From the NCBI RefSeq assembly GCF_001905825.1, contig NZ_LIVV01000006.1:558001-622000 (forward strand): DNA of 64,000 nt. Reading direction: 5' to 3'. Under the pieces are notes generated by a model that was given only the letters and a program-made list of their open reading frames with translations, did not search any database and had not been told where the DNA came from. Shown here in pieces: positions 48,484 through 63,329 of this stretch (its first letter is position 1; each line of letters opens with the position of its first letter). The stretch comes from Streptomyces sp. CB02009. Its GTDB lineage: Bacteria > Actinomycetota > Actinomycetes > Streptomycetales > Streptomycetaceae. Both the position numbers and the translations under genes were made by a program.

Positions 48484-49731
48484 ATGGAGCAGTACGAGCC
48501 CGACAGCCTCTCCGCCGCGCAGACGGCGGCGATACGTCGCAGCCTGACGAGCGGCCGGGGCGCCCTCACCCGCCGTTCGATGCTGCGCGCGGGCGGCGTC
48601 GGCGCGCTCACCGTCGGAGGCCTCGCGTCCCTCAGCGCCTGCGGCATCCCGCCGGCCAAGCGGGAGGGCCAGGGGCCCGCCTCCACCGACGTGTCGGCCA
48701 AGGAGAAGACCCTCGCCTTCTCCAACTGGACCGAGTACATGGACGTCAGCGAGGACGAGAAGTCCCGCCCGACGCTGGAGGCGTTCGCGAAGCGCACCGG
48801 GATCAAGGTCAAGTACACCGAGGACATCAACGACAACGTCGAGTTCTTCGGCAAGATCAAGCCGCAGCTCGCGGCCGGCCAGGACACCGGCCGCGACCTG
48901 ATCTGCGTCACCGACTGGCTCGCCGCCCGGATGATCCGGCTCGGCTGGGTCCAGAAGCTCGACGCGTCGAACCTCCCCCACGCGTACGCGAACCTCTCCG
49001 CCCAGTTCCGCAGCCCCGACTGGGACCCCGGCCGCGCCTACTCGTACCCGTGGACCGGCATCTCCACGGTCATCGCGTACAACGCCAAGGCGACCGGCGG
49101 GAAGAAGGTCGACTCGGTCACCCAGCTCCTCGACGACCCGTCGCTCAAGGGCCGGGTCGGCTTCCTCACCGAGATGCGCGACTCCGTCGGCATGACGCTG
49201 CTCGACCTCGGCAAGGACCCCGGCGACTTCACCGACGCCGACTACGACGCGGCGATCGGGCGCCTCCAGAAGGGCGTCGACAAGAAGCAGATCCGCCGCT
49301 TCACCGGCAACGACTACACCTCCGACCTGGACAAGGGCGACATCGCGGCCTGTCTCGCCTGGGCCGGCGACATCATCCAGCTCCAGGCGGACAACCCGGA
49401 CATCAAGTTCTCCATCCCGTCCGCCGGCTACATCACCTCCAGCGACAACCTGCTCGTCCCCGCCCAGGCCCGGCACAAGACCAACGCCGAGAAGCTCATC
49501 GACTACTACTACGAGCTTCCCGTCGCCGCCCAGCTCGCCGCGTACATCAACTACGTGTGCCCCGTCGACGGGGTGAAGGACGAGCTCGCGAAGATCGACC
49601 CCGAACTCGCGAACAACACGCTGATCCTCCCGGACAAGGCCATGGCCAAGAAGTCGCACGCCTTCCGCTCGCTCACCAGCGCGGAGGAGACGGCGTACGA
49701 GGAGAAGTTCGCCAAGCTCATCGGCGCCTGA
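48484..49731 (+). CDS. potD: Polyamine ABC substrate-binding Tat lipoprotein
   Basis: 415 residues. After a 28-residue N-terminal extension comes the twin-arginine signal (LTRRSMLRAGG, Arg30-Arg31) and lipobox LSAC with Cys53. Mature protein is PotD-like: LAFSNWTEYMDVSEDEKSRP, YTEDINDNVEFFGKIKPQL and RRFTGNDYTSDLDKGDIAAC. It is the binding component for PotABC downstream. Symbol is by operon analogy with E. coli potABCD; ligand (putrescine or spermidine) is inferred. Confidence 0.9.
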   Translation: MEQYEPDSLSAAQTAAIRRSLTSGRGALTRRSMLRAGGVGALTVGGLASLSACGIPPAKREGQGPASTDVSAKEKTLAFSNWTEYMDVSEDEKSRPTLEAFAKRTGIKVKYTEDINDNVEFFGKIKPQLAAGQDTGRDLICVTDWLAARMIRLGWVQKLDASNLPHAYANLSAQFRSPDWDPGRAYSYPWTGISTVIAYNAKATGGKKVDSVTQLLDDPSLKGRVGFLTEMRDSVGMTLLDLGKDPGDFTDADYDAAIGRLQKGVDKKQIRRFTGNDYTSDLDKGDIAACLAWAGDIIQLQADNPDIKFSIPSAGYITSSDNLLVPAQARHKTNAEKLIDYYYELPVAAQLAAYINYVCPVDGVKDELAKIDPELANNTLILPDKAMAKKSHAFRSLTSAEETAYEEKFAKLIGA

Positions 49732-57630: not shown

Positions 57631-58965
57631 TCAGATCTGGGCGAACGCGTTCTCGATGACGTCGAGGCCCTCGTTCAGCAGGTCCTCGCCGATGACCAGC
57701 GGCGGCAGGAAGCGCAGCACGTTGCCGTAGGTGCCGCAGGTCAGGACCAGAACGCCCTCGGCGTGGCAGGCCTTCGCCAGCGCGGCGGCGGCCTCCGCGT
57801 AGGGCTCCTTGGTGTCGCGGTCCTTGACCAGCTCGATGGCGATCATGGCGCCGCGGCCGCGGATGTCGCCGATGGCCGGGAACTTCTCCTGCATGGCGGT
57901 GAGGCGGGCCTTCATGACCTCCTCGATGCGCTGCGCCTTGGCGTTGAGGTCGAGCTCCTTCATCGTCTCGATGGAGCCCAGCGCGCCGGCGCAGGCCACC
58001 GGGTTGCCGCCGTAGGTGCCGCCGAGACCGCCGCCGTGGACGGAGTCCATGATCTCGGCGCGGCCGGTGACGGCGGCGAGCGGCAGACCGCCCGCGATGC
58101 CCTTGGCGGTGGTGATGAGGTCCGGGACGATGCCCTCGTCCTCGCACGCGAACCACTGGCCGGTACGGCAGAAGCCGGACTGGATCTCGTCGGCGACGAA
58201 GACGATGCCGTTGTCGTTGGCGAACTTCACGAGCGCCGGGAGGAAGCCCTTGGCCGGCTCGATGAAGCCGCCCTCGCCGAGGACCGGCTCGATGATGATC
58301 GCGGCGACGTTGTCGGCGCCGATCTGCTTCGTGATGTTGTCGATCGCCTGGGCGGCGGCCTCGGGGCCGCAGTTCTCCGGGCCGGTGGGCCAGCGGTAGC
58401 CGTAGGCCACCGGCACGCGGTAGACCTCGGGGGCGAACGGACCGAAGCCCTGCTTGTACGGCATGTTCTTCGAGGTCAGCGCCATCGTGAGGTTCGTACG
58501 GCCGTGGTAGCCGTGGTCGAAGACGACGACGGCCTGGCGCTTGGTGTACGAACGGGCGATCTTGACCGCGTTCTCGACGGCCTCGGCGCCGGAGTTGAAC
58601 AGCGCGGACTTCTTGGCGTGGTCGCCCGGGGTCAGCTCGGCGAGCGCCTCGCAGACCTCCACGTAGCCCTCGTACGGGGTCACCATGAAACAGGTGTGGG
58701 TGAAGTCCTGGAGCTGCGCGGAGGCGCGGCGCACGACGGCCTCGGCGGAGGCGCCGACGGAGGTCACGGCGATGCCGGAACCGAAGTCGATCAGGCGGTT
58801 GCCGTCGACGTCCTCGATGATGCCGCCACCGGCCCGCTTGGTGAAGACGGGGAGCGTGGAGCCCACGCCACCGGCGACCGTGTCGAGACGGCGGGCCTGA
58901 AGCTCCTGCGACTTCGGACCGGGGATGGCGGTGACGATGCGCCGCTCCTGCGGGACAGCGTTCAT
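57631..58965 (-). CDS. gabT: 4-aminobutyrate aminotransferase
   Basis: 444 residues from ATG 58965 (MNAVPQERRIVTAIPGPKSQ), AGGAG 6-7 nt upstream. Class III aminotransferase with PLP Lys in ITTAKGIAGGLPLAAVTGRA. Other family stretches: FNSGAEAVENAVKIARSYTK, FVADEIQSGFCRTGQWFACE and GLGGTYGGNPVACAGALGSI. It moves the amino group of GABA to 2-oxoglutarate, giving succinate semialdehyde. GabD is not in the window. It probably uses the dyad at 59075 for control by the nearby PucR protein. Confidence 0.94.
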   Translation of the reverse strand: MNAVPQERRIVTAIPGPKSQELQARRLDTVAGGVGSTLPVFTKRAGGGIIEDVDGNRLIDFGSGIAVTSVGASAEAVVRRASAQLQDFTHTCFMVTPYEGYVEVCEALAELTPGDHAKKSALFNSGAEAVENAVKIARSYTKRQAVVVFDHGYHGRTNLTMALTSKNMPYKQGFGPFAPEVYRVPVAYGYRWPTGPENCGPEAAAQAIDNITKQIGADNVAAIIIEPVLGEGGFIEPAKGFLPALVKFANDNGIVFVADEIQSGFCRTGQWFACEDEGIVPDLITTAKGIAGGLPLAAVTGRAEIMDSVHGGGLGGTYGGNPVACAGALGSIETMKELDLNAKAQRIEEVMKARLTAMQEKFPAIGDIRGRGAMIAIELVKDRDTKEPYAEAAAALAKACHAEGVLVLTCGTYGNVLRFLPPLVIGEDLLNEGLDVIENAFAQI

Positions 58966-59253: not shown

Positions 59254-61689
59254 ATGGAGACCGACGGCACGTACGAGTCAGGCGACACCAAGGGGGGCGC
59301 GGTGCCGCGACCGGCGGGGCCTCCCCGGGGGGCGGCCGCCCCCGAGGTGCCACCAGCTCGAAGGGTCGGGCCGGGGCTGCCCAGCGTCCCGCCGTTGCCG
59401 CCCAGGGCTCCCGCCCCGGCCACCGTGCGCGCTTCCTCGCCCGTCGCCGAGTGGCTCGATGCTCCGCGTCCGGAGGCCCCTCTCGGCATCTGGCGGTTCC
59501 GGTACCTTCCGCCGCCTGCCGAGGTCACGCGCATCAGGCCCATCACCTTGCTCGGGATGATGGTCCCCCTGCTGGTCGGACTGTTCATCTGGTTGGCGTA
59601 TCGCAATGACAACCTGCCGTACGCGGCCACCGTGATGCGTACCTTCACGCCGAACGACTGGTGGACCGGCTTCGGAGCGACGGCGAGGGACTGGCAGGGC
59701 GTCGCGGTCCACACGATCTTCGACGGTCTCGTCTTCTTCGGCCTCGTATGGGTGGTCGGTGCCCTGGGCTCCTGGGGCAGGATCATCGGCTACTACCTCG
59801 AGCGACGCCGTCCTCCGGTCCGCGCCGCGCTCACGGGACTGGCGGCGCTCGTCGGACTGGCGGCCGTCCTGCCCGAGGCCCTTCACCTGGGTTGGTCGGC
59901 CGTACCGGTCGTGAACCCGATCCTCTACCTCATCGCCCTGGTGACCGGTGGGTGGCAGATCGCCGGGTCGCCGATCGTCATCTACGCGGTGTACGTCCTG
60001 GCCGCGGCGCTGGTCATCTGGCCGTGCGCGAAGATCGGCGGCTGGGAGGGCCTCTACCGGCAATGGCGCTCCGGGAGCGCCCCGAGCAGCCCGGACCCCG
60101 CCGCTCCGAGCAGCCAGGGAATCCCCCGCTCGCAATGGCCCGAGCTGCGGGCCGCGGGCGCGCACCGGGCGGCGGACGTACTCACCGGCGAAGTCGCCGC
60201 CGGGCGCATGAATGACGCCGACTGCGCCCGGCTGCACCGCGTCTGGCAGGCGGGCGAGCGGGACGCCGGACGCCGTGCCGCCTTCGTCGACGCCCTCGTC
60301 CGCCAGGGTGCCGCCGCCGACACGCACCCGTCCGGCGACCGAGATCTGCCCGCCCGTTCGGCCTCCCACGACCTCCTCGAGGGCCAGGTCAGAGTCGGCC
60401 GGTGGGTGGCTGCCGAGCGTGGTTCACGCAGCTACCACGACGCGGGTCTGGCGCTCGACCCCGAGCTCCTCGGCACCTCCCTTCTGGCCGTGGGCCCCTC
60501 CGGATCGGGCAAGACGCGGTCCCTCGTCGCCCCCGTGGTCGAGTCACTGTGCCTCCAGGCGCTCACCGGCGCCTGCGCCGTCGTCGCCGTCGGCTCGGCC
60601 GGATCGCAGCTCGGTCCCGACGCGGCGTACGACGTCGTGATCCGACTCGGCGACCCCGCCTCCCGGTACGACCTCGACCTGTACGCCGGAGCCACGGACC
60701 CGGACGAGGCCGCCGCGTGCCTCGCCGAAGGACTGGTCGGCGACATGGAGGGCATGGAGACGCGACGAGCCGCCACGGTCCTGGCGCAGCTCCTCGGCCC
60801 CTACCGGGTCGCGTACGGACGGTTTCCCACCGTGCCGGTCCTGCGGGAACTGCTCGAAGCCCGCCCCGAGAGCCTGCGGGACCTGCTCGACCTCCTGCCG
60901 GCCGACGGCGCGCAGGCGATGCGTCGCGAGCTGGAGTCCCGGCTTCGGCAGGTCGGGACCACGAACGACCTGGGCCCCGTCCTCGCCGACCGACTCGCCG
61001 CTCTCGACCGGCCGCTCTTCGCCGAGTTCTTCGGCGGGGCGGAGGGGTCGAGGTCCTTCTCCCTGCGGTCCGCCGCGCAGCACCCGATGCGGGTGCGGAT
61101 CAGCCTGCCCGAGGGCGGCCACGAGGAGGCCGCGCGTCTGCTCAATCGGTTGTTGCTCGCCCAGTTCCAGCACATCACGCGCGGCGGTGCGGGGCGGGGG
61201 ATCTCCGCGTTCCTGGTGCTCGACGACGCGGCGGGTGCCGTGACCCCGGGCGCCCTGCGGGCTCTTCAGCGGCTGCGGACGCAGAACTCGGGTGTCGTGC
61301 TGGCCCTCCGCACCCTCGCGGAGGTGCCTGAGGCCCTGCACGGACCGCTCCTCGCGACCGTCGGCTGCCGGATGGCCTTCTCGGGCCTTCCCACCTGGGA
61401 CGGTCGGGCCTTCGCCGAAGCGTGGGGCACCGAACGGGTGGAGATGACCGAGGTGGCCCATCACACCGTCTTCGCCGATCAGCCGATGACCAGGGCCATC
61501 CACGCCCTGCGCAAGCTGGTGACGGGCAAGGCGGTGACCACAGAGGCGGTCACCGTGCGCGAGGTGGAGCGGCAGCGCTGGTCCGCCTCGGACCTCGCTC
61601 ACGCCGTCCCCCCGGGCCACGCCGTCCTCTCGCTGAGCCACGTGCGGGGTGAGCAGGTACCGCCCATGCTCGTCGACCTCCGCGGCTGA
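59254..61689 (+). CDS. Membrane-anchored VirD4/TraD-like P-loop ATPase, unknown function
   Basis: 811 residues. A Pro/Ala-rich start is followed by about five TM helices within residues 95-265 (ITLLGMMVPLLVGLFIWLAY, IFDGLVFFGLVWVVGALGSW, ILYLIALVTGGW, IVIYAVYVLAAALVIWPCA). A HerA/FtsK-superfamily ATPase follows: Walker A GPSGSGKTR (414-421) and Walker B FLVLDDAAG with Asp657-Asp658. The rest resembles type IV coupling proteins. No relaxase, T4SS or integrase is nearby, so it is a chromosomal member. It lies between gabT and pucR, with a terminator at its end. Not functionally known to me. Confidence 0.85.
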   Translation: METDGTYESGDTKGGAVPRPAGPPRGAAAPEVPPARRVGPGLPSVPPLPPRAPAPATVRASSPVAEWLDAPRPEAPLGIWRFRYLPPPAEVTRIRPITLLGMMVPLLVGLFIWLAYRNDNLPYAATVMRTFTPNDWWTGFGATARDWQGVAVHTIFDGLVFFGLVWVVGALGSWGRIIGYYLERRRPPVRAALTGLAALVGLAAVLPEALHLGWSAVPVVNPILYLIALVTGGWQIAGSPIVIYAVYVLAAALVIWPCAKIGGWEGLYRQWRSGSAPSSPDPAAPSSQGIPRSQWPELRAAGAHRAADVLTGEVAAGRMNDADCARLHRVWQAGERDAGRRAAFVDALVRQGAAADTHPSGDRDLPARSASHDLLEGQVRVGRWVAAERGSRSYHDAGLALDPELLGTSLLAVGPSGSGKTRSLVAPVVESLCLQALTGACAVVAVGSAGSQLGPDAAYDVVIRLGDPASRYDLDLYAGATDPDEAAACLAEGLVGDMEGMETRRAATVLAQLLGPYRVAYGRFPTVPVLRELLEARPESLRDLLDLLPADGAQAMRRELESRLRQVGTTNDLGPVLADRLAALDRPLFAEFFGGAEGSRSFSLRSAAQHPMRVRISLPEGGHEEAARLLNRLLLAQFQHITRGGAGRGISAFLVLDDAAGAVTPGALRALQRLRTQNSGVVLALRTLAEVPEALHGPLLATVGCRMAFSGLPTWDGRAFAEAWGTERVEMTEVAHHTVFADQPMTRAIHALRKLVTGKAVTTEAVTVREVERQRWSASDLAHAVPPGHAVLSLSHVRGEQVPPMLVDLRG

Positions 61690-61772: not shown

Positions 61773-63329
61773 ATGCCGCCCACCCTCGCCTCCCTCGTCC
61801 AGCACTCCTCCCTGAAGCTCGTCGTCCGGGCGGGGGAGGACCGTCTGGACACCCCCGTCCGCTGGGCGCACGTCAGCGAGCTCGCCGACCCCGTCCCGTA
61901 CATGGAGGGCGGCGAGCTCCTCCTCACCACCGCGCTCACCCTCGACGCGGAGGACCTGGAGGCGATGCGCCGCTACGTGCGGCGGCTGCTCGGCGCGGGG
62001 GTCGTCGGGCTCGGCTTCGCCGTCGGCGTCAACTACGACGAGATCCCGTCCGCCCTGCTCGACGCGGCCAGGGACGAGCACCTGCCCCTCCTCGAAGTGC
62101 CGCGCAGGACCCCCTTCCTCGCCATCAGCAAGGCCGTGTCCGCGGCCATCTCCGCCGACCAGTACCGCGCCGTCACCGCAGGCTTCGAGGCCCAGCGCGA
62201 GCTGACCCGTGCCGCGCTCGCCGAGGGCCCCGAGGCCGTCGTCGCCCGGCTCGCGGCCCATGTCGACGGCTGGGCCGCGCTCTACGACACCTCCGGCACC
62301 GTCGTCGCCGTCTCGCCCGACTGGGCGGCCCGCCGGGCCGCCCGCCTCACCTCCGACGTCGAGCGGCTGCGCGACCGGCCCGCGCCCGCCAGTGCCGTCG
62401 TCGGCGGCACGGACGACCGTGTCGAGCTCCAGTCGCTCGGCACCGGACGCCGCGTCCGCGGCGCCCTCGCCGTCGGCACCGGCGCGCCCCTGGGGACGGC
62501 CGAGCGGTACGCGGTGCACTCGGCGATCGCCCTGCTCACCCTCACGACGGAACGCTCCCGTTCGCTGCAGGCCGCCGAGCAGCGGCTCGGCGCCGCGGTC
62601 CTGAAGATGATGCTCGCGGGCCAGCCGGACCACGCGCGCGCGGTGGCCGGCGACGTGTACGGCGGGCTGCTCGACGCCCCCTTCCGGCTCCTCGTCGCCG
62701 AATCCGCCGGGGGCGACCCCGCCGGCGAACCGGCGCTCCAGGTCCTCGCCGAGGCCCTGGAGTCGGCGGCCGCACGCGCGGGCGAGGCGGTGCTCACCGT
62801 CCCCGAGAGCGAGCAGCGGCTCGTCGTCCTCGCCGGCGACGCGGGCGCGGTCGTCGCCGCCTGCGAGGGGTACGCCGAACGGGACGCCGAGGACGCCGGC
62901 CTCACCATCGGACTCTCGGCCCCCGCCGGCCCCATCACCGCCGCCACCGCGTACAAGCAGGCGGAACAGGCCCTCTCGGTGGCGAGGCGGCGCGGCAAGG
63001 CGCTCGTCGAGCACGAGGACCTCGCGGCGGGCTCGGTCCTGCCGCTCCTCGCCGACGACGCGGTCCGCGCCTTCGCCGACGGGATGCTCCGCGCCCTGCG
63101 GGACCACGACGCGACGGGCCGCGGCGATCTCGTCGCCTCCCTGCGCGCCTGGCTCTCCCGGCACGGCCAGTGGGACGCGGCCGCGGCCGACCTGGGGGTC
63201 CACCGGCACACCCTGCGCTACCGGATGCGGCGGGTGGAGGAGATCCTCGGCCGCTCGCTCGACGACCCGGACGTACGGATGGAGCTGTGGCTGGCGCTCA
63301 AGGCGACGGGGGAGGGCGCGGCGGAGTAG
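61773..63329 (+). CDS. PucR-family transcriptional regulator
   Basis: 518 residues. N-terminal PucR domain (LASLVQHSSLKLVVRAGEDR to about 125), a middle GGDEF-like/CdaR region (around LGAAVLKMMLAGQPDH to AAGSVLPLLADD) and a C-terminal PucR/CdaR HTH (WDAAAADLGVHRHTLRYRMR, then VEEILGRSL). In B. subtilis, PucR and GabR-type regulators of this class control purine or GABA use. Proximity to gabT suggests control of GABA/polyamine catabolism; that is inference. Confidence 0.9.
   Translation: MPPTLASLVQHSSLKLVVRAGEDRLDTPVRWAHVSELADPVPYMEGGELLLTTALTLDAEDLEAMRRYVRRLLGAGVVGLGFAVGVNYDEIPSALLDAARDEHLPLLEVPRRTPFLAISKAVSAAISADQYRAVTAGFEAQRELTRAALAEGPEAVVARLAAHVDGWAALYDTSGTVVAVSPDWAARRAARLTSDVERLRDRPAPASAVVGGTDDRVELQSLGTGRRVRGALAVGTGAPLGTAERYAVHSAIALLTLTTERSRSLQAAEQRLGAAVLKMMLAGQPDHARAVAGDVYGGLLDAPFRLLVAESAGGDPAGEPALQVLAEALESAAARAGEAVLTVPESEQRLVVLAGDAGAVVAACEGYAERDAEDAGLTIGLSAPAGPITAATAYKQAEQALSVARRRGKALVEHEDLAAGSVLPLLADDAVRAFADGMLRALRDHDATGRGDLVASLRAWLSRHGQWDAAAADLGVHRHTLRYRMRRVEEILGRSLDDPDVRMELWLALKATGEGAAE

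Follow-up and report, generated by a model that had tools for sequence, protein, structure and literature searches.

A divergent VirD4/TrwB-like membrane protein at a fixed locus in Streptomyces, a probable partner of the distantly encoded Cmd apparatus

Coupling proteins of the TrwB/VirD4/TraD type (Pfam PF10412 and PF12696) consist of N-terminal membrane helices, two of them in TrwB and VirD4, and after these a RecA-like domain into which a helical segment is inserted. TraB of Streptomyces plasmids, an FtsK/SpoIIIE-like membrane ATPase that acts in plasmid transfer, belongs to a different family. Besides, Streptomyces chromosomes encode the Cmd apparatus (SCO4126-4131) and the hydrolase TgdA (SCO4132), and cmd null mutants, except for cmdA, were reported to form paler colonies with fewer spores (PMC2782261). 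Insertions in tgdA, cmdBCDEF and SCO5677 were reported to raise actinorhodin equally, RED is cited likewise, and all these genes are stated to participate in aerial hyphae formation (PMC6585502). A statement tying SCO5677 to type IV coupling proteins, or proposing it as the Cmd coupling protein, was not found in the available text of PMC6585502, whose source (Gehring et al., 2000) may hold prior insight. SCO5677 of S. coelicolor is described as an ATP/GTP-binding membrane protein and lies beside SCO5676, a GabT homologue (PMC8998196). Here we describe a gene with the same description and in the same place, found in a stretch of 64,000 nt (the window) from Streptomyces sp. CB02009 (GCF_001905825.1, contig NZ_LIVV01000006.1, positions 558,001-622,000), where it occupies positions 59254-61689 and encodes a protein of 811 aa.

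We propose, with a probability of roughly 60%, that the 811-aa protein is a divergent VirD4-like protein, encoded away from the Cmd apparatus and acting as its partner by docking with CmdD and CmdE; a free-standing pump it probably is not. The protein would be a cytoplasmic, membrane-anchored partner of CmdA-F and the peptidoglycan hydrolase TgdA, a complex related to type IV secretion systems (T4SSs) whose genes lie elsewhere in the chromosome and on which normal aerial hyphae depend. Its N-terminal helices would dock on the polytopic CmdD and the single-span CmdE, and its RecA-like domain would gate the complex or load it with whatever substrate it may have. If this is true, SCO5677 and cmd/tgdA, separate developmental loci with shared mutant phenotypes, join as one T4SS-related machine, in which the place of VirD4 is assigned to the 811-aa protein.

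Loci and their genomes are referred to by L numbers, and the two allele types of the gene, A and B, are described below. Alignment A2 holds the window gene and 23 of 26 loci fetched from a scan of Streptomyces genomes (24 rows). The gene is composed as follows (positions in the window):

59254..61689, + strand: divergent VirD4/TrwB-like membrane protein, 811 aa, positional counterpart of SCO5677
59254..59442, + strand: proline-rich N-terminal tail, residues 1-63, with the start METDGTYE in 24/24 rows of alignment A2
59542..60039, + strand: membrane region with about five helices, residues 97-262, the part most divergent between alleles A and B
60424..61686, + strand: RecA-like domain, residues 391-811, aligning with TrwB
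60493..60516, + strand: Walker A GPSGSGKT, residues 414-421, missing in orthologues L011-L016
60700..61032, + strand: all-helical insert, residues 483-593, presumably in the place of the TrwB all-alpha domain
61213..61227, + strand: Walker B LVLDD, residues 654-658 (DD at 657-658), the distant plasmid relatives, L034 and L035, having DE here
59400..61600, + strand: putative allele-swap block relative to the type-B strain L019, DNA identity 37-72%

The open reading frame was confirmed as a genuine gene: it is a single frame with an ATG start and codon-position G+C of 0.76/0.55/0.89, the pattern of high-GC coding genes. The size, the approximately five N-terminal helices and the positions of Walker A and DD given in the original prediction, which had been made from the letters of the window, were borne out by the frame, hydropathy and motif reading. 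Five hydropathy peaks were found in the N-terminal region (residues 97-115, 150-168, 192-210, 215-233 and 241-259), where the predicted model also has helices, and a sixth peak (428-446) falls inside the ATPase domain. Naming the protein by sequence searches failed, as no match of value was obtained in Pfam (only AAA_22 at E 0.056), NCBIfam, PHROGs, PADLOC or the PDB sequences. Distant relatives on plasmids of Nocardiopsis (L034) and Saccharothrix (L035), with 33-34% identity to the protein over approximately 520 aa, both passed the Pfam gathering cut-off for PF10412 (TrwB_AAD_bind), and L035 only also that for PF12696 (TraG-D_C). An AlphaFold model built from the 24 chromosomal sequences was of modest quality (mean predicted local distance difference test score, pLDDT, 58.7; predicted template modelling score, pTM, 0.42). 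Foldseek comparison of this model with the PDB placed TrwB first (E 4e-6, probability 1.00), and with VIA-align residues 391-811 were again most similar to TrwB (Z 20.6, root-mean-square deviation 4.4 Å, 337 residues), followed by DndH (Z 18.6), a Legionella coupling complex (16.9), VirB4 (16.8) and HerA (14.8). The fold match, together with L034 and L035 passing the Pfam cut-offs, supports a resemblance of the predicted domain to VirD4/TrwB, both in fold and as remote homology. The claim of a protein in the style of type IV coupling proteins thus stands for the fold and falls short for the motifs: Walker B reads DE in L034 and L035, and the motif after it, which we take to be motif III, contains a glutamine, whereas the 811-aa protein has DD in Walker B and Arg at the glutamine position. 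Because of these two positions the protein is called coupling-protein-like and not a standard VirD4/TrwB family member; it also differs from TrwB, VirD4 and TraD by its approximately five membrane helices and by the absence of Walker A in some orthologues. TraB is of a different family, and FtsK motor chains (Z approximately 13.6) scored below TrwB on the model of the 811-aa protein.

The position of the gene between an aminotransferase gene and a regulator gene, as given in the original prediction, was confirmed with Pfam:

57631..58965, - strand: gabT, class III aminotransferase (PF00202), left locus marker, divergent
61773..63329, + strand: pucR-family regulator (PF07905/PF13556), right locus marker, downstream

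The order gabT-gene-pucR was found in 26/26 of the fetched Streptomyces loci and also on L032 (NZ_CP081497.1:1418316-1431881), a 2.8-Mb record labelled plasmid from Streptomyces sp. BHT-5-2. This conservation, for which a search had been suggested, speaks against homologues occurring solely beside a relaxase or integrase gene, the relaxase scan itself covering the neighbours in the window. There, 30 other frames were picked by codon pattern at 24-64 kb and 18 of them were scanned against Pfam; no integrase, relaxase or transposase was found among these 18, in agreement with the original prediction of no integrated element, nor were channel genes recognised, which is a further difference from TrwB/VirD4/TraD. 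The gene had also been held to lack a conjugation system, which is right for the genes alongside it and has to be amended for the genome, since a T4SS-like cmd locus lies elsewhere in it. The genome scan used six short peptides of the 811-aa protein itself and detects near relatives, so it is silent on how many Streptomyces lack the gene. L017 and L018 (broken frames) and L022 (a frame of 475 aa) were counted for locus order but entered neither alignment A2 nor the flank-gene tree. A single match to the gene was present in the genome of CB02009; of five other genomes searched with a profile, four held it at one place each and L017 held three pieces of one broken gene. Eight plasmid records match residues 293-811 or less of the protein; the BHT-5-2 record is among them, leaving seven plasmids. 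No relatives were found in the phage collection or in the 29 stretches of viral contigs that matched by pattern. The gene has become part of the chromosome in a group of Streptomyces; the designation as chromosomal holds for its fixed locus, with the addition that relatives also exist on plasmids. The orthologue at L022:10497-11924 has an intact frame of only 475 aa that matches from residue 340, which may reflect decay or an assembly error.

Comparison of the window with L019 showed 94-99% DNA identity in gabT, 94-98% in pucR (to position 63200), and 37-72% in most of the gene. Synonymous divergence (dS) was 0.06-0.11 in the flanks vs. 0.83-0.89 inside the gene, which makes it most likely that a divergent allele was exchanged. 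The divergent type, labelled type B after inspection of the alignment, was carried by five strains (L019, L020, L021, L023, and L026). They form one clade in the tree of the ATPase domain (support 100/100) but are dispersed over the gabT-pucR tree, where five changes are required and a single-clade tree was rejected (approximately unbiased test, p 0.004). Two pairs of sister strains differ in type, L002 (A) from L019 (B) and L003 (A) from L026 (B); in the 22-kb loci around the gene it was the only one below 85% identity (1/13 and 1/14, respectively).

The VirB4-type family PF12846 had two matches in the genome of CB02009, one of them within the cmd locus (L046). The genes of this locus were named from their order and from the likeness of SCO6878, SCO6880, and SCO6881 to cmdB, cmdC, and cmdD (PMC2782261), and are listed in the order in which they occur:

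L046: TgdA, with SLT and NlpC/P60 domains as in a VirB1-like wall hydrolase
L046:3272-3580: CmdF, 102 aa
L046: CmdE, 278 aa, single span
L046: CmdD, 439 aa, seven hydrophobic stretches in the longest frame
L046: CmdC, SCO6880-family protein
L046: CmdB, VirB4-like, over the cut-off for PF12846 and PF19044
L046:8794-10581 (contig C31 of the same genome): CmdA, 595 aa, two N-terminal spans, VirD4-like in appearance

Of the parts of a minimal Gram-positive T4SS, the Cmd locus thus contains a VirB4-like ATPase (CmdB, also described as VirB4-like in PMC2782261) and a VirB1-like hydrolase. Evidence for CmdD being VirB6/TrbL-like is weak, with matches below cut-off to TrbL_4 (E 0.028) and to the SCO6881 model (27 bits). 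CmdE is putatively VirB8-like by its anatomy; it had no match in Pfam or PDB sequence searches, and no profile supported this likeness. The last half of CmdA matches at least 300 plasmid records, and 14 of the 15 matches listed carry an annotation as TraM-recognition or type IV DNA-transfer protein. The second PF12846 match is a VirB4-like gene of 856 aa (E 5.9e-70). Next to it comes a frame of 950 aa containing eight hydrophobic stretches, and the two together (L045:7523-12834, contig C8) are possibly another T4SS-like cluster.

Where the 811-aa gene and cmd lie on one contig, they are separated by approximately 1.58 Mb (L023), 1.43 Mb (L013) and 1.48 Mb (L017). An association of alleles across the two loci is present in these data, exploratory and with one exception. 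Over the 6.5 kb compared, the cmd locus showed 93-100% identity in both sister pairs, apart from one divergent block and minor steps. The block of 700 bp, at 51-69% identity in both pairs, extends over the 3' portion of cmdE and the 5' end of cmdD; the minor steps of 100 bp were at 86-88% at offset -1400 in both pairs and at 89% at +700 in the second. Ahead of the block CmdE was 98% identical in both pairs, and its C-terminal part only 48-50%. Among seven genomes (the window's, L002, L003, L013, L019, L023, and L026) this C-terminal part showed 44-51% identity in A-B pairs, 61-86% in A-A pairs and 78-80% in B-B pairs. In the same seven genomes the lineage-corrected correlation with identity of the 811-aa gene was 0.98 for CmdE (reached in 5/5040 permutations, counting the observed order) and 0.65 for CmdD (1/5040), and it was not significant for gabT, pucR, TgdA, CmdB and CmdA. 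With an eighth genome (L017), whose sequence was assembled from tblastn segments, the values were 0.67 for the C-terminal part of CmdE (216/40320) and 0.56 for the N-terminal part of CmdD (3/40320). Allele types were concordant in 7/8 genomes. For pCW3, two-hybrid tests were reported to show contacts of the VirB8-like TcpC with both TcpA and TcpH (PMC4840375), and TcpA is named as a coupling protein in the PDB structure-match listing; because of these contacts, alleles of a coupling-protein homologue tracking those of VirB6-like and putatively VirB8-like proteins would make structural sense. The paired polymorphism offers a natural genetic handle on which subunits touch, and on whether the machine distinguishes plasmids or strains.

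Parts of the same set were found together on plasmids. The gene next to the plasmid relative encodes a CmdD homologue (48-53% identity) in four of the seven plasmid loci examined (L027-L030), followed in L030 by a CmdE homologue. All four plasmid relatives of the 811-aa gene that were tested were nearer type B. FtsK/TraB-like proteins, below the NCBIfam cut-off, are encoded near the relatives in L027 and L028; a reading of the P-loop neighbour as VirB4 was dropped, as PHROGs and NCBIfam place it as TraB/FtsK-like. A homologue of the TraB-like protein of L027 (4870-7110) gave no match in the genome of CB02009, an empty result that carries little weight. In L034:10940-13554 and L035:10663-13370 the coupling-protein-like gene overlaps an M48 metalloprotease gene, which takes the place of the CmdD homologue, and these ATPases have no hydrophobic membrane stretch of their own. 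On the Streptomyces plasmids L049 (NZ_CP108823.1) and L050 (NZ_CP107781.1) a divergent CmdE/CmdD pair is encoded, and neither plasmid matched the 811-aa gene.

Motifs were counted in 30 Streptomyces rows, 25 from the chromosomal locus (L032 included) and five from plasmids. A DE Walker B was present in two of these rows (L006 and L032) and the motif-III glutamine in none. Walker A was intact in the window protein and in 19/25 chromosomal-locus rows, and missing in L011-L016 (6/25, one clade) and in three of the five plasmid copies (L027, L029, and L030), for which the domain tree requires two changes or more. Among 23 chosen pairs, the ratio of nonsynonymous to synonymous divergence (dN/dS) of the ATPase part was 0.07-0.42 in 22 and 0.55 in one, indicating purifying selection in most; the membrane region was under looser selection, with 1.02-1.35 in five A-B pairs involving L019 or L023, to which saturation may contribute. 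Several lineages have thus retained the protein although no ATPase is obvious in it. That one chromosomal clade has lost Walker A suggests that docking, and not ATP-driven transport, would be the function common to all members; this loss, together with the silent cmdA mutant, calls for caution in assuming a pump. The label of a DNA or protein pump in the original prediction must, given the degenerate ATPase signature, be regarded as unproven. A role in hyphae, also suggested there, is plausible, and no longer to be called wholly unknown, because mutants of SCO5677 have been published (PMC6585502). The earlier interpretation as a whole is partly supported.

Several points weigh against a partnership with Cmd. 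L017 combines a type-A gene with a type-B CmdE and so breaks a perfect matching between the loci, Fisher's 2x2 test of the eight genomes gave p=0.071, and the p-values are exploratory because the types were named after seeing the alignments and the two sister pairs are the only independent contrasts. CmdC was borderline (299/5040 against the whole 811-aa protein, 13/5040 against the ATPase part of that protein alone), and the rest of CmdD reached only 0.28 in eight genomes (2190/40320). On the cmd contigs, identities below 85% were also seen elsewhere, in 6/80 matched genes (L002/L019) and 7/62 (L003/L026), cmd genes included. On plasmids, three of the seven loci (L033, L034, and L035) lack a CmdD homologue, CmdD relatives occur on 26 records of which 22 have no match to the 811-aa gene, and the expectation that plasmid CmdD and CmdE would be closer to type B, in line with plasmid relatives of the 811-aa gene, was not clearly borne out. 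The structural model is of modest quality, and coupling proteins Cag-beta (Z 13.9) and TcpA (13.0) scored no better than HerA or FtsK. A VirD4-like protein, CmdA, is already encoded in the cmd locus itself, although no Walker A can be seen in it, and deletion of cmd was reported, as data not shown, to leave transfer of an SLP2-derived plasmid unchanged (PMC2782261). Finally, the window gene is likely the orthologue of SCO5677, a relation drawn from position and description and not from sequence.

A more far-reaching version of the partnership may be put forward tentatively. CmdA-F, TgdA and the VirD4-like protein would form a domesticated, dispersed T4SS-like machine in which the coupling-protein homologue and two membrane partners act as a polymorphic recognition module; two old versions of it would have been swapped by recombination at two distant loci, tending to stay matched, and plasmids would bring in forms of these three parts by which the host machine could be re-specified or jammed. 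Somewhat more doubtful still is that the gene, CmdD and CmdE serve foremost as a self/non-self or plasmid-conflict factor, a polymorphic module setting compatibility with plasmids or other hyphae by exclusion or as a decoy, which plasmids would re-specify or jam through versions of their own. Two divergent allele classes scattered over the flank-gene tree, the jump in dS between flanks and gene from window to L019, the high dN/dS of the membrane region (saturation being possible) and plasmids holding the gene alongside CmdD or CmdE relatives are what such a factor would lead one to expect; the unaffected transfer of the SLP2-derived plasmid (PMC2782261) and plasmid CmdD and CmdE proteins that are not clearly of one chromosomal type are not.

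That the protein is a DNA or protein translocase independent of Cmd seems unlikely: the TrwB-like fold and the Walker A kept in the window protein and most chromosomal rows agree with it, but it has to accommodate the clade without Walker A, the absence of the motif-III glutamine from all 30 Streptomyces rows, and a published mutant phenotype that is the same as that of cmd mutants (PMC6585502). A HerA-type antiphage or antiplasmid defence ATPase is very improbable, for although the fold matches include HerA, SIR2-HerA, DndH and TdpAB chains, TrwB outscores them, PADLOC gave no match, and the gene adjoins gabT and pucR instead of a nuclease or SIR2 partner. Equally improbable is a neutral, functionless remnant of plasmid origin, with which the degenerate motifs of several lineages would be compatible; one site kept in all fetched loci, the low dN/dS of the ATPase part and the phenotype of insertion mutants in the positional counterpart SCO5677 (PMC6585502) argue against it. 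The partnership with Cmd is retained as the preferred reading.

In the remainder of the window, a tRNA-Val was predicted at 48512-48597, inside the start of the frame of a solute-binding protein, which is perhaps over-long.

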